DNA of 64,000 nt from Nocardioides sp. JQ2195 (GTDB lineage: Bacteria > Actinomycetota > Actinomycetes > Propionibacteriales > Nocardioidaceae). The DNA is taken from the NCBI RefSeq assembly GCF_012272695.1, contig NZ_CP050902.1, positions 1,302,001 through 1,366,000 on the forward strand, read 5' to 3'. Position 1 is the first letter of the stretch; every line of letters begins with the position of its first letter. A program made the position numbers and the translations under genes. Below are positions 7,930-16,009 of the stretch, one piece after another. The notes beneath the pieces were generated by a model, which did no database searches, was not told the origin of the DNA, and worked only from the letters and a program-made list of their open reading frames with translations.

Positions 7930-8352
7930 TCAGGTGTCGATGCCCGGCAGGTCCTGCGGGGCTCCACCCAGGTCGAGCTCGCGCAGGCTGGCATCGAGCA
8001 GGGCCTTGATCGCCCACTCGCGCTCGGCGGCGACCGTGCGCCCGACCATGTCGGCATACGTCACGGTGCACCGTTGCTCGATCTGAAGGCCGGCAGCCTC
8101 CACCTCGTCGGGGGTGCGCAGCTGGTTCGGCAGCTCGTAGGCGACCTCCGCGGCCACCGGCTGCTCGCCGGCGTCACGGATCCAGCGCACGAGCTGGTCC
8201 CGGCGGGTGCGGTGCCGGGTGTACCCGCTGCTGACGGTGTCGAAGAGCTTCGGCTGGGCAGACTCCGAGGTCTGGCCGCCGAGCGTGGTGTAGAGCCACA
8301 CGGCGGCATGCTCCGCGGCCAGCGTGGTCTGCAACGGCGACGTGTCGCTCAT
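7930..8352 (-). CDS. Ferritin-like (DUF4439) protein
   Basis: 140 residues. The helix pattern [20 protein letters not shown], then [17 protein letters not shown], and later [17 protein letters not shown] matches DUF4439, a ferritin-like four-helix bundle common in actinobacteria. Glu and His residues at helix positions (AEHA, RHRTRRD) could bind metal, but a full diiron set is not obvious. It overlaps the upstream lipoprotein gene by 4 bases (ATGA), so the two are translationally coupled. The same pair lies beside proS and rimP in Mycobacterium. Function unknown. Confidence 0.8.
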
Positions 8353-8855
8353 GCGTCACTGGCCTTCCTGGACGCGGGGAGCACCTGGCGGTGCTGCGCG
8401 ACGCCGGCAGCCATCGCAGCCAGGGTGCGGGCGAGGGTTCCGCTCGAGACGTCCGCGGCGAGTCCGGACAGGGTGGCCTGCAACGTCGTCTCCCGGCGGC
8501 GTACGGCGTCCAAGGCGACCCCGCTCGCCTTCGGCACGTCGGGGGCGGTGGTCGGGGAGGCGGTGCGGTGCGGCTCGAGCAGGCCGAGGTGCGCGGTGTG
8601 CAGGGCGGTCAGCTCTGCCAACGGTCCGGACAGGCCGATGTGCTTGTCCGCCACGGCCGAGACGAACTGCTGCGCCTCGGTGATGGCGGCCACGGCGGCA
8701 TCGACCTGCTCCGCGTCGGGAACACCCTCGGCGACGTCCTGCTCCGGCGGTGTGGCGGCCTCCTCGGCCGGCCCCCAGCGGCATCCGGCCGCGAGCAGCA
8801 GCGGCGCGGCGGCCAGTGTCGTACGTCGCGACACGGGGTGGGAGGGGATCGGCAC
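8349..8855 (-). CDS. Predicted Tat-type lipoprotein, helical
   Basis: 168 residues. The N-terminus [17 protein letters not shown] combines a twin-arginine-like start with a lipobox (LAAGC), so the product is probably exported and lipidated at the cysteine near residue 25. The mature part is helical with E/H-rich stretches ([22 protein letters not shown]) and may itself be a diverged ferritin-like bundle, which would fit its coupling to the DUF4439 gene. It starts with GTG behind a leaderless-type promoter divergent from rimP. No function can be assigned. Confidence 0.75.
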
Positions 8856-8861
8856 GCGCCG

Positions 8862-8867
8862 ACTCTA
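8862..8867 (-). promoter_or_regulatory. Putative -10 (TAGAGT) for leaderless lipoprotein gene
   Basis: On the minus strand TAGAGT is followed by 6 bases and GTG 8855. Confidence 0.45.
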
Positions 8868-8897
8868 AGGCATGTCATGGTCGCTGGGGATTGCCGC

Positions 8898-8903
8898 TAT
8901 GGT
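8898..8903 (+). promoter_or_regulatory. Putative -10 (TATGGT) for rimP-nusA
   Basis: TATGGT lies 30 bases before ATG 8934. Seventeen bases upstream of it, at 8875, is TCATGG, a poor -35. This promoter gives a leader carrying the strong AAGGAGG site at 8921. Confidence 0.4.
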
Positions 8904-8933
8904 TGGGCCCACAACAGCACAAGGAGGTCGCCC

Positions 8934-9416
8934 ATGAGCAGCGCCAAGTCTGACGCAACCAGGGATCGCATCGAAGCGGAACTCATTGACCCCCTGTCGA
9001 CCTTCGGGCTCGACGTCGAAGCGGTCGAGATCACTCCGGCCGGCAAGCGCCGCGTGCTGCGTGTCGCCGTCGACAAGGACGGCGGCGTCACTCTCGACGA
9101 CGTCGCGGAGGCGACGCGCGAGATCGAGCGGGTGCTCGACACCTCCGACGTGATGGGGGAGCACCCCTACACGCTCGAGGTGACCTCGCGTGGTGTCGAT
9201 CGGCCGCTCACCCTGCCGCGCCACTGGCGTCGCAACGAGGACCGGTTGGTGAAGGTGTCGATGATCGAGGGCGACGAGGTCGAGGGCCGCATCGGCTCGT
9301 CCACCGACTCCGCGGTCAGCCTCGACGTCAACGGATCCACCCAAGAAATCGCCTACGCCGACATCTCCAAGGCCAAGGTCCAGATCGAGTTCAACCGAAA
9401 GAGCAGGGACGTCTGA
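8934..9416 (+). CDS. rimP: Ribosome maturation factor RimP
   Basis: 160 residues, the normal length. RimP assists maturation of the 30S subunit. Typical features are [21 protein letters not shown] at the N-terminus, the DLxxxR-like segment around [26 protein letters not shown], and a C-terminal SH3-like barrel. AAGGAGG at 8921-8927 gives an unusually strong ribosome binding site and decides the start. The stop TGA overlaps the nusA ATG by one base (TGATG), the classical rimP-nusA coupling. Confidence 0.95.
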
Positions 9417-10408
9417 TGGACATCGACCTGAGCATCCTCCGCATGCTCGAGCAGGAGAAGGAGATCAAGTTCTCCGTCCTGGTGGAGGCGATCGAGCAGG
9501 CCCTGCTCACTGCCTACCAGAAGACCGGGGGCGCGCAGCCGCGCGCGCGGGTGGTCCTCGACCAGAAGTCCGGTCACGTGTCGGTGCTGGCCGCCGAGCT
9601 CGACGACGAGGGCAACGTCATCGGCGAGTACGAGGACACCCCCGACGGGTTCGGCCGGATCGCGGCCACCACGGCGAAGCAGATCATGCTGCAGCGCCTG
9701 CGCGACGCCGAGGACGAGGTCAAGTTCGGCGAGTTCTCCGGCAAGGAGGGCGACATCATCTCCGGCATCATCCAGCAGGGTCGCAACCCGGACGACGTCA
9801 TGGTCGACCTCGGAAAGCTGGAGGCACTGCTCCCGCTGGGCGAGCGGGTCCCCGGCGAGAAGTACGAGCACGGTGAGCGCATCAAGTGCATGGTGGTCTC
9901 GGTGCGCAAGGGCATGCGCGGTCCGCAGGTCACCCTCTCGCGTACCCACCCGAACCTGGTCCGCAAGCTCTTCGCACTCGAGGTGCCGGAGATTGCCGAC
10001 GGCACCGTCGAGATCGCCGCCATCGCCCGGGAAGCCGGGCATCGCACCAAGATCGCGGTGCACTCGAAGGTGCCCGGCGTGAACGCCAAGGGTGCCTGCA
10101 TCGGGCCGATGGGCCAGCGGGTGCGCAACATCATGTCCGAGCTGCACGGCGAGAAGATCGACATCGTCGACTGGTCGGAGGACCCCGCAGAGCTGGTCGC
10201 CCACGCGTTGTCACCGGCTCGGGTCCGCTCGGTGGAGATCATCTCTCTGCAGGAGCGGTCGGCACGGGTCGTCGTCCCCGACTTCCAGCTGTCGTTGGCG
10301 ATCGGCAAGGAGGGCCAGAACGCCCGCCTGGCTGCGCGGCTCACGGGGTGGCGCATCGACATCCGCTCCGACGACGAGTCGTCGCACGAGCGCGTCGAAA
10401 CCCGGTGA
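9416..10408 (+). CDS. nusA: Transcription termination/antitermination protein NusA
   Basis: 330 residues, the short actinobacterial form without the C-terminal acidic repeats. The order is an N-terminal RNA-polymerase-binding domain ([17 protein letters not shown]), an S1 domain (about 130-200; [21 protein letters not shown]), then two KH domains with [21 protein letters not shown] and [19 protein letters not shown]. It modulates pausing and termination. It is coupled to rimP. The expected next gene, ylxR, is separated from it by an opposite-strand gene. Confidence 0.97.
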
Positions 10409-10436
10409 GAGACGCACCGACTGCGACCGGGGTCTG

Positions 10437-11024
10437 TCAGCCCCAGCTCCGGCAGACCCAGCCGTCACCGTCGATGTCGATCTCGATCGTGTCGCAGTTG
10501 TCCAGGCGGGTCATCTCGATCCCGGACATCCGTGCCAGCGCCGGGACCCCGAGCCGGAGCAGGCCACCGTGGCTGATCACGAGCACGCTCTCCCCGCGGT
10601 ACTGGTCGGCGATGTCCGACAGCGTCGCCCGGAGTCGCTCGATGCCCTCGGTGCCGGTCTCGGCGCCGGGGGCCCGGGTGTCCAGCTCGCCCTCGAGCCA
10701 GCGCAGGTAGGTCTCGGCGAACGGGTCGTCGGCGCGCGGGAGCCCGGCGTACTCGCCGCAGGAGAACTCGTCCAGCGCCGAGCGGGTGCTCACGGCCACG
10801 CCGAGGGTCGCGGCCACGATCTCCCCGGTCTGCACGGCGCGGGCCAGCGTGCTGGTCCAGACGTGCGCCACCTTGCGACCGGCCAGTTTCTCGGCGAGCT
10901 CGACCGCCTGGCGACGCCCGAGGTGGGTCAGTGACCCGCCCTCGTCGGTGAGCAGGTCCGACTCGTACTCCGCCTCACCGTGCCTGGCCAGGACGATCCG
11001 ACTGGCGCACTGCAGGTCGCTCAT
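10437..11024 (-). CDS. Histidine phosphatase (phosphoglycerate-mutase-like)
   Basis: 195 residues. RIVLARHGEAEYESD contains the catalytic RHG motif with its nucleophilic histidine; the second catalytic His is in VLVISHGGLLRLGVP; STLARAVQTGEIVA and LDEFSCGEYAG supply the arginine and acidic positions. It is a branch-1 acid-phosphatase-type enzyme; substrate unknown. ATG 11024 is preferred over longer frames because GGGAGGAG stands 8 bases upstream. It lies antisense between nusA and ylxR, a place where most bacteria have no gene. Confidence 0.88.
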   Translation of the reverse strand: MSDLQCASRIVLARHGEAEYESDLLTDEGGSLTHLGRRQAVELAEKLAGRKVAHVWTSTLARAVQTGEIVAATLGVAVSTRSALDEFSCGEYAGLPRADDPFAETYLRWLEGELDTRAPGAETGTEGIERLRATLSDIADQYRGESVLVISHGGLLRLGVPALARMSGIEMTRLDNCDTIEIDIDGDGWVCRSWG

Positions 11025-11136
11025 GTGATGCTCCTCCCGCCCGCTGGCCGGCGTGGGACGCCAGCCGCTTGCTCTCCATCTTGGCCGATCCAGGGTGAGG
11101 CGGGGATACCGGTTCGATGTTGGGGCCGGCAACGGC

Positions 11137-11142
11137 TAGACT
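11137..11142 (+). promoter_or_regulatory. Putative -10 (TAGACT) for ylxR-infB
   Basis: TAGACT lies 8 bases before GTG 11151. A separate promoter is needed here because an opposite-strand gene cuts ylxR off from nusA. Confidence 0.5.
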
Positions 11143-11150
11143 CTCCGCTG

Positions 11151-11456
11151 GTGGTTATGACTGGCAACACTCCTGCGCGCCCACGCCCGGTGCGTATGTG
11201 CGTGGGATGTCGCGAGCGGGCCACCACGCTTGAGTTGATCCGGGTTGTCGCCGGGTCGGACGACCATGGCCCCGCCGTGGTGCCCGATCTCGACGGCACG
11301 GCTCCTGGTCGGGGCGCACACCTGCACCCCACACCAGCGTGCCTTGCCCTGGCAGTGCGCAGACGGGCGTTCCCGAGAGCCTTGCGGTTCGCGGGGGGCC
11401 TCGACGTCACCGCCCTGAGCAGCCTGATCGACACGAGCACTGACACCACACCGTGA
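11151..11456 (+). CDS. ylxR: YlxR family RNA-binding protein
   Basis: About 100 residues. VRMCVGCRERATTLELIRVV, GRGAHLHPTPACLALAVRRRAF and the C-terminal segment ALRF are the diagnostic YlxR (DUF448) motifs. Family members bind nucleic acid and have been linked to RNase P and transcription regulation. GTG 11151 is preferred over ATG 11157 because of its leaderless spacing from the TAGACT hexamer; no ribosome binding site is visible for either. The stop overlaps a GTG that opens the infB leader ORF described separately. Confidence 0.92.
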   Translation: MVMTGNTPARPRPVRMCVGCRERATTLELIRVVAGSDDHGPAVVPDLDGTAPGRGAHLHPTPACLALAVRRRAFPRALRFAGGLDVTALSSLIDTSTDTTP

Positions 11457-11531
11457 TTGACCTACAGGAACTGGAGCAGCAGCTCATGAGCACTCGATGA
11501 GTACTTCCCGATGAGTTTGCACAACCACTAA
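11453..11531 (+). promoter_or_regulatory. infB leader with chained micro-ORFs
   Basis: A 15-residue frame starts at GTG 11453, overlapping the ylxR stop as GTGA, and reads MIDLQELEQQLMSTR to TGA 11498-11500. Its stop overlaps ATG 11497, which opens MSTSR ending at TGA 11512-11514. That stop overlaps ATG 11511, which opens MSLHNH ending at TAA 11529-11531. Within the first frame, ATG 11486 alone would give MSTR. All junctions are ATGA/GTGA. The frames end 60 bases before infB. Whether they are translated is not known; the layout suggests termination-reinitiation coupling in front of an initiation-factor gene. Confidence 0.55.
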
Positions 11532-11591
11532 CGGTCCGAATCACCTCCTCCTGCAATCGGCAGCGTCGGGGCTCGGGCCAGAAGGAGAAGC

Positions 11592-14450
11592 GTGGCCAAG
11601 CCCCGAGTACACGAACTCGCCAAGGAATTCGGCGTCGAGAGCAAGTTTGTTCTCGAGAAGCTGAAGGAGATGGGGGAGTTCGTCAAGTCTGCGTCCTCGA
11701 CCGTGGAACCCCCGGTCGCGAACCGATTCAAGAAGGAGTACGGCGAGCAGCTCAAGGCTGCTGCCGCCACTTCCGCCCCTGAGGCGCCCCAGGAGGCCCC
11801 GGCCAAGAAGGCCGCGGCCAAGCCCGGCCCCAAGCCGCCGGCCAAGAAGGCCGCCGCGGAGCCGGCTCCTGCTCCTGCCGACGAGGCCCCGGCAACCGAG
11901 GGGCAGCCCACCCAGGCGCCCTCCACCCCGGAGGCTCCGGCTGCCGTCTCAGCGACCAAGCCCGGCCCGAAGCCCGGGCCCAAGCCCGGCCCCAAGCCGG
12001 CTGCGGCTCCGGAGGCACCCGAGGCACCGGCCGCCAAGGCCCCCTCGCCGAAGGCCCCCGCGCCCAAGGCTCCGCCGCCGCGTCCGGTCGGCAAGCCCGG
12101 CGGCACCCCGCGTCCGGGCAACAACCCGTTCTCCTCCAGCCAGGGCATGGGACGACGCCCGGCTCCGGCCGACCGTGGTCCGGCTCCGGCTGGCGGCACC
12201 GGCGGTGCCGCGGGCGGCGACCAGCAGCGCCCGCCGCGTCCCCCGGCCTCCCGTGACGGCGGCGCAGGTCGCTCCAGCGGCATGCCGCGCCCCAACCCGG
12301 CGATGATGCCCAAGTCCCCGGCTGCCTTCGGTGGCGGTCCCGGCGGCCGTGGGCCCGGTGGTCCCGGCGGTCGTGGAGGCCCCGGTGGCGGTCGTGGCGG
12401 AGCGCCCGGCCGCGGTGCCCCCGGTGGCGCCCCCGGCCAGCGTCCCGGCGGCTTCGGCCCGTCCGGCGGCGGTCGTCCCGGTGGCGGTCGTCCCGGTGGG
12501 AACCGGCCCGGTCAGCGTGGTCAGACCCAGGGTGCCTTCGGTCGCCCCGGCGGTCCGTCGCGTCGTGGTCGCAAGTCGAAGCGGGCACGTCGTCAGGAAT
12601 TCGAGGCCATGCAGGCCCCGACGATCGGTGGCGTGCGCGTCCGCAAGGGTGACGGCGAGACCGTGCGCCTGGCACGGGGCGCGTCCCTGACCGACTTCGC
12701 CGAGAAGATCAACGTCGACGCCGCGGCCCTGGTGCAGATGCTCTTCTCGCTCGGCGAGATGGTCACCGCCACCGAGTCGGTCGACGAGGCGACGTTCGAG
12801 CTGCTCGGCGAAGAGCTGAACTACGTCGTCCAGATCGTCTCCCCGGAGGACGAGGACCGTGCCCTCCTCGAGGGCTTCGACCTCGAGTTCGGTGCCGACG
12901 AGGGTGACGAGGACGACCTGTCCTTCCGTCCGCCGGTCGTCACCGTCATGGGTCACGTCGACCACGGAAAGACCAAGCTCCTCGACGCCCTTCGCAGCGC
13001 GAACGTGGTCGACAAGGAAGCCGGTGGCATCACCCAGCACATCGGCGCCTACCAGGTCGCGACGGAGGTGGACGGCGAGGACCGTCGGATCACCTTCATC
13101 GACACCCCGGGTCACGAGGCGTTCACCGCCATGCGTGCCCGTGGTGCCCAGGCCACCGACATCGCGATCCTCGTGGTCGCGGCCGACGACGGTGTCATGC
13201 CGCAGACGGTCGAGGCGTTGAACCACGCCAAGGCTGCGGACGTGCCGATCGTGGTCGCGGTGAACAAGATCGACAAGCCGGAGGCCGACCCGACCAAGGT
13301 CCGTGGCCAGCTCACCGAGTACGGCCTGGTGCCCGAGGAATACGGCGGCGACGTCATGTTCGTCGACGTCTCGGCCAAGTCGGAGCTCCACCTCGACAAG
13401 CTGCTCGAGGCCGTCGTCCTCACCGCCGATGCATCCCTCGACCTGCGGGCCAACCCCAACCAGGACGCCCAGGGCATGGTCATCGAGGCGCACCTCGACC
13501 GTGGCCGCGGCCCGGTTGCCACGGTGCTGGTCCAGCGCGGGACGCTGCGTGTCGGTGACTCGATCGTCGCCGGCGCCGGCCACGGTCGCGTCCGGGCGAT
13601 GCTCGACGAGCACGGCAACAACATCGAGGAGGCCGACCCGGCCCGTCCCGCGATGGTGCTCGGCCTGAACGCCGCCCCCGGCGCCGGTCAGACCTTCATC
13701 GTCGTCGACGACGACCGGATGGCCCGCCAGATCGCCGAGAAGCGCGAGGCACGCGAGCGTGCGGCCATGCAGGCCAAGCGTCGCGTGCGTCGTACCCTCG
13801 AGGACTTCATGGCCTCCATGGAGAAGGGCGAGAGCCAGGAGCTCAACCTCATCCTCAAGGGCGACGTGTCCGGTTCGGTCGAGGCCCTCGAGGACTCGCT
13901 GGCCCAGATCGACGTCGGCGAGGAAGTCTCGCTGCGCGTCATCGACCGCGGTGTCGGTGCGATCACCGAGACCAACGTCGACCTCGCAGCCGCCTCGGAC
14001 GCCATCATCATCGGCTTCAACGTCCGGCCCCAGGGCAAGGCGGGCCAGATGGCCGACAAGGAAGGTGTCGAGATTCGCTACTACTCGGTCATCTACCAGG
14101 CGATCGAGGAGATCGAGGCCGCGCTCAAGGGCATGCTCAAGCCGGAGTACGAGGAAGCCTCCCTGGGCAAGGCGGAGATCCGCGAGATCTTCCGCTCGTC
14201 CAAGGCCGGCAACATCGCAGGCTGCATGGTCATCGACGGCACGGTTCGCCGCAACGCGAAGGCGCGCGTCCTGCGCGACGGAGCGGTCATCGCGGACAAC
14301 CTCGACCTGGCCTCGCTCAAGCGGGAGAAGGACGACGCCTCCGAGGTCCGCGAGGGCTTCGAGTGTGGTCTGGTGCTCAAGAACTTCCAGGACATCAAGA
14401 TCGGCGATGTCGTGGAGTCGTTCGAGATGCGCGAGATCCCGCGCAGCTGA
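11592..14450 (+). CDS. infB: Translation initiation factor IF-2
   Basis: 952 residues. The N-terminal IF2_N motif ([21 protein letters not shown] type) is followed by a long low-complexity linker of about residues 55-325, first Ala/Pro/Lys, then Gly/Pro/Arg repeats such as [12 protein letters not shown]. The G domain begins at residue 454 with GHVDHGKT (P-loop), then DTPGHEAF (G3) and NKID (G4); domains II-IV follow to the fMet-tRNA-binding C-terminus ending [12 protein letters not shown]-2 places initiator tRNA on the 30S subunit. The start is GTG with AGAAGGAGA upstream. The chained micro-ORFs in the leader may influence its translation. Confidence 0.98.
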
Positions 14451-14456
14451 TCCGCC

Positions 14457-14495
14457 GGGCCGGCTCGGCGACCGCACTGGTCGCCGAGCCGGCCC
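14457..14495 (+). terminator. GC-rich hairpin after infB
   Basis: Perfect 16-base stem GGGCCGGCTCGGCGAC with a 7-base loop, starting 6 bases after the infB stop. It has no T-run, so it may be a terminator or a processing or stability hairpin between infB and rbfA. Confidence 0.55.
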
Positions 14496-14513
14496 GTCAT
14501 CCACACCTGTCGT

Positions 14514-14574
14514 CGCCGAGTCGGCACGAGTTGACGCCCACGAGTGTCGACACGTGCCGACTCGGCGCAGTTTT
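14514..14574 (+). terminator. Second hairpin before rbfA, with T-run
   Basis: CGCCGAGTCGGCACG pairs perfectly with CGTGCCGACTCGGCG over a 24-base loop and is followed by CAGTTTT. It resembles a rho-independent terminator but stands 14 bases before rbfA, so partial readthrough is likely. The right arm includes ACACGTGCCGACTCGG, related to the repeat unit at 43820. Confidence 0.55.
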
Positions 14575-14588
14575 GAGAGAGTAGGAAC

Positions 14589-15050
14589 ATGGCCAGCCCA
14601 CGGGTTCGCAAGATCGCGGACCGGATCAAGATCATCGTCGCCGAGATGTTGGAGCGTCGCGTCAAGGACCCGCGCCTGGGTTTCGTGACCGTCACCGACG
14701 TGCGCGTCTCCGGCGACAGCCAACACGCGACCGTGTTCTACACGGTGCTCGGCGAGGAGGACTCGCTGGCCGGCACCGCGGCTGCCCTCGAGTCGGCCAA
14801 GGGCCTGATCCGCTCGGAGGTCGGCAAGCAGCTGGGCATCCGTCACGTCCCGACCCTGGAGTTCATCCACGACGCCCTCCCGGAGACGGCGCGCCAGCTC
14901 GACGACGTGCTCGCCCGGGCGCGGGAGATCGACGAGCAGGTGGCCGCCACCCGCATGGGCGCGACCTACGCCGGGGGCGACGACCCCTACAAGAAGCCGC
15001 ACGAGGACGCCGCCGACCCGGACCCGGACACCGACGCGGACGACGAGTGA
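14589..15050 (+). CDS. rbfA: Ribosome-binding factor A
   Basis: 153 residues. RbfA binds the 30S subunit and is needed for late 16S rRNA maturation. Family features are [41 protein letters not shown] and the AGA-like kink region [21 protein letters not shown]. The C-terminal 30 residues are an acidic tail ([12 protein letters not shown]) common in actinobacteria. The stop overlaps the truB GTG by 4 bases. Confidence 0.96.
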
Positions 15051-15970
15051 CCCCAGCACCTCCTCCCGCCGGCCTGGTCGTCGTCGACAAGGCCGGCGGG
15101 ATGACGTCCCACGACGTGGTCGCGCGGGTACGCCGACTGGCCGGCACCCGCAAGGTCGGCCACGCCGGCACGCTCGACCCGATGGCGACCGGCGTGCTCG
15201 TGCTCGGGGTCAACCGGGCCACCCGGCTGCTCGGCCACCTGATGCTGACCGAGAAGGGCTACGACGCCACGATCCGTCTCGGTGTCTCGACCACCACGGA
15301 CGATGCCGAGGGTGAGACCACCTCGACCACGCCTGCCGGTCATGTCACCGAGCCGGAGATCCGGTCGGCCCTCGAGCGTTTCGTGGGAGACATCGAGCAG
15401 GTGCCCACCGCCGTCTCCGCGATCAAGGTCGACGGGAAGCGGGCCTACCAACGGGTGCGTGACGGGGAGACCGTCGAGCTGAAGGCGCGCCCGGTGACCG
15501 TGCACGAGATCGTGGTGCACTCGGTGGTTGAGGAGGCCGAGCAACGAGGCCGTCTCGAGACCACCCCGACATCTGTCGACGTGCGCATCTCGGTGCGTTG
15601 CTCCAGCGGCACCTACATCCGCGCCATCGCCCGCGACCTCGGCGAGGCACTCGGGGTGGGCGGTCACCTGACCGCCTTGCGGCGCACGGCCGTCGGTGGC
15701 TTCGACCTGTCCGTGGCGACGACGCTCGAGCAGCTCGGCGACGAGTTCACGATGGTGCCGATCGCCGACGCAGCCCGAGCCACCTTCCCGACGTACGAAC
15801 TGGATGACGAGCAGGCCGGCGACGTCCGCGTGGGCCGCAAGCTCAGCATCGACCTGGAGCAGCTCACCGCGGTCTTCGCACCCGACGGGGAGTTCCTGGC
15901 GCTCTACGAGCCTGCCGCGGACGCCCCCGGTCGAGCTCGCGCCGTCGCCGTCTTCACGGGTGGTCCCTGA
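15047..15970 (+). CDS. truB: tRNA pseudouridine-55 synthase, with translated repeat insert
   Basis: 307 residues. TruB makes pseudouridine 55 in the T-loop of tRNAs. The catalytic aspartate is in [39 protein letters not shown] and [15 protein letters not shown] are further family motifs, and a PUA-like C-terminus follows. Residues 160-173 ([14 protein letters not shown]) are encoded by a copy of the REP-like repeat at 15523-15565. They lie between [10 protein letters not shown] and [12 protein letters not shown], where homologues I remember have a shorter loop. The frame is intact, so the insert is probably tolerated. The stop codon lies inside the left arm of an 18-bp inverted repeat. Confidence 0.96.
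15523..15565 (+). repeat. REP-like palindromic repeat inside truB
   Basis: GGTGGTTGAGGAGGCCGAGC to CGTCTCGAGACCACC, 43 bp. It has the same start and end as the intergenic copies at 623 and 61146. It is read in frame as [14 protein letters not shown] in TruB. Confidence 0.8.
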
Positions 15971-16009
15971 GGTTTCGGTCCCACTCACATCGGACCGAAA
16001 CCTCAGGGA
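15964..16009 (+). terminator. 18-bp perfect inverted repeat at truB end
   Basis: TCCCTGAGGTTTCGGTCC and its exact complement are separated by a 10-base loop; the truB TGA (15968-15970) is part of the left arm. A third partial copy, CGGAAACCTCAGGGA, is at 16032-16046. There is no T-run. It may terminate truB transcription or be a palindromic repeat element. Confidence 0.6.

Follow-up and report, generated by a model that had tools for sequence, protein, structure and literature searches.

A class-wide ladder of overlapping micro-frames and two mutually exclusive predicted helices before infB: a possible attenuator of IF2 synthesis

Introduction

Why should the gene of a translation initiation factor be preceded by a series of frames that are too short to be protein genes, each of which begins where the former one ends? 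This question is raised by the leader of infB, the gene of initiation factor 2 (IF2), in a DNA stretch of 64,000 nucleotides (nt) from Nocardioides sp. JQ2195 (contig NZ_CP050902.1, positions 1,302,001 to 1,366,000), the whole of which is hereafter called the window. Between ylxR and infB, three frames of 4, 5 and 6 codons (the rungs of what we call a ladder) are linked by ATGA overlaps, the start codon of rungs 2 and 3 lying within the stop codon of the preceding rung. A first-pass annotation made from the letters of the window had described a GTG-started 15-residue frame ending in MSTR, rungs 2 and 3, their overlaps and a gap of 60 nt between the TAA of the last rung and the start of infB (GTG at 11592), and we find every one of them where it placed them. 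It had read the junctions as a sensor of initiation or reinitiation that could autoregulate IF2, a reading that our comparison supports in part. The comparison of leaders reported below supports well the chain, its pattern of Shine-Dalgarno (SD) sequences and two helices located downstream of the last stop; from these features we infer that the rungs are translated and that the helices switch. We propose, as a reading about evenly poised between right and wrong, that the infB leader is a translation attenuator that would measure the efficiency of reinitiation and feed back on IF2 synthesis.

Results

A chain of start-stop overlaps is conserved before infB

The leaders were sampled independently of the motif, from genomes of the window's class with a YlxR match (191/206); 189 loci were fetched and 182 leaders, spanning 37 families and 79 genera, were counted. 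At least two chained NTGA junctions are found in 163/182 of these leaders, against 3.0% of 3640 dinucleotide shuffles, and, when one-base overlaps (UGAUG) are counted too, in 180/182, against 4.1% of the 3640 shuffles. This confirms that the ladder is present, and far above chance, in nearly all of these infB leaders. The start-stop overlap that characterizes translational coupling is found at the junctions of the window as in these 180 leaders. The comparison is the one that the first-pass annotation had proposed, with the expectation that the overlaps would be conserved while the intervening codons would vary, and this expectation was borne out: the residues between junctions read, for instance, MSTR, MSAR, MTAQ, MSTP, METK or MKLK. 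Seven loci (L183, L214, L369, L376, L381, L382 and L384) were left out since the script did not place their infB start; by eye, a ladder is present in L183 and a single junction in L214; two junctions are seen in L381, and one NTGA junction with a UGAUG readable beside it in each of L376, L382 and L384. A Dermatophilaceae metagenome-assembled genome (L043) carries one extra rung, apparently from a duplicated 11-nt unit.

Outside the class and within the phylum, infB was placed in 45/70 loci (25 unplaced), one-base overlaps not being counted in those leaders; two junctions occur in 0/45 and one junction in 14/45, which is about the shuffle level. Furthermore, the infB start codon is GTG in 182/182 leaders of the class, and start codons are mixed outside it. 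Chance, or common descent without function, is hardly credible as the origin of such a distribution. A single NTGA junction is indeed frequent in shuffled leaders (about 36% of them), and related genera do not provide independent leaders, but the excess of leaders with two or more junctions extends over 79 genera with differing codons, no leader with two junctions was found among the 45 placed outside the class, and both helices described below covary.

The wording of the ladder is another matter. The first-pass annotation had suggested that wording similar to ATGAGCACTCGATGAGTAC stands before infB in other actinobacteria; this wording does occur in infB leaders of Streptomyces and Nocardioides, whereas what is conserved is the chain and not the letters. 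In the window's own genome, the pattern ATGA-11-ATGA-14-ATGA occurs once, at infB, and in this genome together with 24 relatives the triple with 11/14 spacing gives 26 matches in 24/25 genomes, against 1 for the reversed pattern; 22 of the 26 are ladder-like by their letters. A scan of named genomes for the literal pattern yielded at least 118 loci. Among the matches listed, 101 precede infB by script and 3 more (L060, L080 and L111) by eye, and these infB loci come mostly from Streptomyces, as well as from Nocardioides, Ornithinimicrobium, Phycicoccus, Kitasatospora and others. The exact wording was nevertheless rejected as the conserved element: with at most one mismatch it is found in 27/296 genomes of the phylum, and not in every one of them at infB, whereas the chain is near-universal in the class sample.

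The rungs bear signs of translation

The results on SD sequences, hairpin, covariation, masking, spacing and codon length concern the first 147 leaders or their genus representatives. Rung sizes are regular, with 4 codons for rung 1 in 111/132 leaders, 4 or 5 codons for rung 2 in 130/132 and 6 codons for rung 3 in 111/141, and the spacing of adjacent ATGAs, taken from genus representatives with no frame imposed, is 2 mod 3 in 107/117 cases. Several lineages carry substitutes. GTGA stands in place of ATGA in f4 (mycobacteria-like, the family guesses being our own) and in L250 and L273; the first-ATG site is altered in 16/18 leaders of f85, where rung 1 begins instead at a GTG located upstream, in frame and preceded by an SD; and f89, whose loci have a G+C content of 49% (73% for the main set), retains the chain although its codons are wholly different. 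In 91/125 junctions, CGA is the codon that precedes the overlapping ATG, against 72/1067 NNA codons in infB. As the overlap forces the final A only, CGA itself seems to be under selection.

Rung 1 possesses an SD (mean duplex energy of -6.2 kcal/mol in 136 leaders, against -3.3 at random places) and thereby gives the leader a short frame on which ribosomes can load directly, as is found in erm/cat attenuation. Rungs 2 and 3 have no SD (means of -2.5 and -2.1 kcal/mol, against the same -3.3), so that ribosomes presumably reach them solely via reinitiation. The SD of infB is strong, with a mean of -9.2 kcal/mol. We regard it as very unlikely that the AUGAG repeats act at the RNA level, as a protein-binding site or a structural part, instead of being translated frames. 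The strong repetition of the wording in Streptomyces and the preference for CGA would suit such a motif, but the spacing is in frame, the GTG, UGAUG and upstream-GTG substitutes alter the motif yet keep the chain, f89 uses other codons, and the ladder region is devoid of excess structure (mean z -0.33).

On the upstream side, the ylxR frame overlaps rung 1 in 61/147 leaders. The first-pass annotation had counted three chained junctions in the window, the first being a GTGA at the ylxR stop that opens a 15-codon frame; the ATGA junctions at 11497 and 11511 hold, whereas the GTGA opening does not hold as a conserved element. In view of the distances of the ylxR stop in relatives, and as L022 has an in-frame TAG directly before the start of rung 1 (ATG1), the frame at 11453 was rejected as a conserved rung. 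In 9/13 same-genus loci, the window counted in, the ylxR stop directly overlaps ATG1 (distance -4, with the ylxR frame located by motif search). The GTGA bridge therefore looks like a local substitute, the conserved first rung being the ATG at 11486.

Two mutually exclusive helices are predicted after the last stop

In 134/141 leaders, a predicted hairpin has its first paired base 0-4 nt beyond the terminal stop of the ladder. Genus representatives were used for its analysis, 61 of them for swaps and recoding and 60 for masking, alignment and stability, the leaders whose last frame enters infB being left out of the 60. The hairpin region is more stable than its shuffles (mean z -2.85; 53/60 representatives at or below 5%). 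Its two arms, arm1 next to the terminal stop and arm2 directly 5' of the infB SD, are paired in 88.4% of cells of the 60-representative alignment and show 27 double changes, against 9.1 in shuffles (standard deviation 3.1). Arm2 is complementary also to infB codons 3-6 (arm3). This second pairing is present in 86.4% of cells of the same alignment with 25 double changes, against 12.8 in shuffles (standard deviation 3.0). Neither count was matched in 500 shuffles (0/500), and slid controls are far lower. RNAalifold by itself, applied to the alignment, returned only four arm1:arm2 pairs with a weak consensus energy of -0.86 kcal/mol.

The native arm2:arm3 duplex (-26.1 kcal/mol) is stronger than those of between-family swaps (about -22.9 kcal/mol) and than those of synonymous recodings (mean z -1.18; 22/61 at p 0.05 or below). 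In the fold of the window, a predicted inner helix (11576-11580:11593-11597) takes in two bases of the infB GUG start. When arm1 is masked, the cost of exposing -14 to +18 goes from 11.5 to 18.3 kcal/mol in native leaders (+6.8) and from 12.8 to 12.5 kcal/mol in shuffled leaders (-0.3), the native effect being the bigger one in 55/60 representatives. Two mutually exclusive helices, one of them closing the SD and the start as in erm/cat attenuation, are thus predicted, with f4, f8, f1-g2 and f79 as exceptions. In the f2 genome L183, which keeps its ladder, the hairpin-like stretch and the SD are found far more downstream than in other leaders. Between arm1 and arm2 of the window, ATCACCTCCTCCT (11540-11552), which we take to resemble the anti-SD end of 16S ribosomal RNA, could pair with the infB SD, and similar stretches are seen in some other leaders (L199 and L264).

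These helices bear on another way of reading the ladder, namely a positive relay in which ribosomes coming from ylxR or rung 1 would be passed from rung to rung and then to infB, raising IF2 without any sensing. Translational coupling classically takes the form of chained overlaps, and the overlap of ylxR with rung 1, together with the lack of SD at rungs 2 and 3, is in line with a relay. We nonetheless find it rather unlikely, given that a median of 43 nt and a stable predicted hairpin separate the last stop from infB, that infB has a strong SD of its own, and that a relay leaves the arm2:arm3 covariation unexplained.

Organization of the locus in the window

The features of the locus are collected in Table 1. 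Between nusA and ylxR, the minus strand carries a phosphoglycerate-mutase/histidine-phosphatase-like frame (10437-11132), named by its sequence, with no family search made. Given the orientation of this frame, ylxR-infB would have to be transcribed from a separate promoter in the window.

Table 1. Features of the ylxR-infB region, with positions in the window
Feature	Position	Strand	Remarks
ylxR, upstream gene	11157..11456	+	YlxR family PF04296 match in own genome, E 1.1e-19; stop codon leads into the ladder region
GTG-started 15-codon frame	11453..11500	+	Opened by GTGA (11453-11456) at the ylxR stop; shares the rung 1 stop; last residues MSTR
GGAG, probable SD of rung 1	11473..11476	+	9 nt 5' of ATG1
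Rung 1, MSTR, 4 codons	11486..11500	+	ATG1 at 11486
Rung 2, MSTSR, 5 codons	11497..11514	+	ATGA 11497-11500, start within the rung 1 stop
Rung 3, MSLHNH, 6 codons	11511..11531	+	ATGA 11511-11514, start within the rung 2 stop; TAA 11529-11531
Arm1, GGTCCGA	11533..11539	+	1 nt past the terminal stop; predicted partner arm2
Arm2, TCGGGCC	11573..11579	+	Predicted partner arm1, or part of the helix closing the infB start
SD of infB, AGAAGGAG	11580..11587	+	Directly 3' of arm2
Arm3, within infB (codons 3-5 in the window)	11599..11606	+	Predicted pairing with 11566-11573
infB (IF2)	11592..14450	+	GTG start

Discussion

In the attenuator that we propose, ribosomes would load at rung 1 or come in from ylxR and, after each termination, would have to reinitiate at the start codon embedded in the stop. 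An initiation complex on the start codon of rung 3 (ATG3) should stop short of arm1, which should in contrast be covered by a ribosome that reaches the end of rung 3; the distance from ATG3 to the hairpin is mostly 21-27 nt. Once arm1 is covered, arm2 would be freed to pair with infB codons 3-6, and the SD and GUG of infB would be closed. On the other hand, if reinitiation were poor for want of IF2, ribosomes would drop off, the first helix to form during transcription would be arm1:arm2 and infB would stay open. The outcome would be a negative autoregulation, in which high IF2 closes infB and low IF2 leaves it open, and the feedback would be sharpened because several successive reinitiations must succeed.

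According to PMC2268962, when IF2 was overproduced in Escherichia coli, reinitiation with a mutant initiator transfer RNA (tRNA) rose about 2.5-fold, IF3 overexpression lowers reinitiation, and reinitiation without an SD is inefficient; its authors suggest that the need for IF2 may be greater in reinitiation than in de novo initiation. As reinitiation is IF2-dependent in E. coli, an attenuator of this kind would be a negative feedback on IF2, and a sensor is plausible because, in addition, two covarying and mutually exclusive helices directly follow the last stop. It is by analogy with E. coli that we infer IF2 as the signal and the negative sign of the regulation. The same attenuator might answer to another signal, such as initiator tRNA or its formylation, IF3, drug stress or the recycling of ribosomes, or might work with the opposite sign, the traffic on the rungs opening infB. 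The anatomy alone does not name the signal, and reinitiation depends also on initiator tRNA and IF3 (PMC2268962). These variants appear to us improbable, though not far-fetched, for the controlled gene encodes the very factor that was found limiting for reinitiation (PMC2268962), and, given the position of the terminal stop, a ribosome terminating there should prevent the hairpin by which the start of infB is freed.

Several observations weigh against an attenuator sensing IF2. When the SD and start are opened alone, arm1 has no consistent effect over the 60 representatives (mean -0.2 kcal/mol, p 0.08). With the coding start taken in, many leaders already have the closed fold as the prevailing one at equilibrium, and the model therefore requires co-transcriptional folding. 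In the window, the arm1 effect amounts to 6.7 kcal/mol for a footprint from -12 and to zero for a footprint from -14, and the masking effect is below -0.5 in 4/60 representatives. The arm2:arm3 pairing is not clear in f4, f8 and f1-g2, and f79 is without hairpin; in the f4 member L237, the printed fold places arm2 opposite the SD itself, a pairing that may be another solution in this family. The whole 186-nt leader of the window, considered as an unusually stable fold, found no support (z -0.31). The shuffles and swaps on which the statistics are built leave the relatedness among genera in place. Finally, the E. coli result on IF2 was obtained with a mutant initiator tRNA, and the organism is not actinobacterial (PMC2268962).

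The infB leader joins features of GCN4-type control by upstream open reading frames (uORFs), of erm/cat attenuation and of the autoregulation of IF3 and release factor 2 (RF2), and fits none of them fully. In yeast GCN4 and mammalian ATF4, scanning ribosomes meet several spaced short upstream frames, and reinitiation depends on eIF2. The infB leader likewise has several short upstream frames and would rely on an initiator-tRNA-carrying factor (IF2 in place of eIF2), but its starts lie within stops, a switch between helices is predicted as its output and the gene under control is that of the factor itself. In the translation attenuation of erm and cat, a drug stalls the ribosome on one leader frame and a choice between helices, like that predicted for infB, opens the gene. 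Common to both would be a leader frame on which the ribosome position chooses between two helices, one of them closing the SD and start; the infB leader differs by its three-frame chain, by reinitiation as the proposed signal and by closing rather than opening. E. coli provides autogenous control of IF3, through the AUU start of infC, and of RF2, through the frameshift of prfB. As in these two cases, the reaction catalysed by a translation factor would determine the level of that factor, but the infB leader has no frameshift, and an AUU start of the infC type is absent from all of the class leaders, where infB starts with GTG.

Among elements closer to the locus, translational coupling of neighbouring genes, which IF2 promotes and IF3 reduces according to a review (PMC12548453), shares the start-stop overlaps, but the infB leader is a serial chain of frames too short for proteins, and no such leader is mentioned in the accessible part of that review. 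The rimP-leader, described in PMC2965389 as a transcription terminator motif before rimP in the rimP-nusA-infB operon, is likewise a leader element of an operon that includes infB; the ladder differs in its position, after ylxR and before infB, and is not proposed to act as a terminator. Rfam gave 0 matches at gathering score in positions 8000-16000 of the window and in ten loci of the class. Searches among open-licence PMC papers listed no earlier description of a ladder in the infB leader, which is not proof of novelty, and the available portions of PMC4833913, PMC2965389, PMC12548453, PMC9094748 and PMC2268962 do not describe it.

A wider and tentative reading, for which our confidence falls just short of even, is that actinobacteria evolved in the ladder an equivalent of GCN4 control: a device that counts serial reinitiations on rungs of 4, 5 and 6 codons and sets IF2 levels through a bistable RNA, as a dedicated sensor of the capacity for (re)initiation kept over the whole class. 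If this is true, eukaryotic uORF reinitiation control would have a counterpart in bacteria, and start-stop overlaps could be chained into a sensor. The rung frames are very short and regular in size, and hence easily missed by annotation. The ladder may also bear on the universal GTG start of infB in the class, and it offers a concrete proposal, open to testing, for the way in which the amount of a central initiation factor is set throughout a large class of bacteria.
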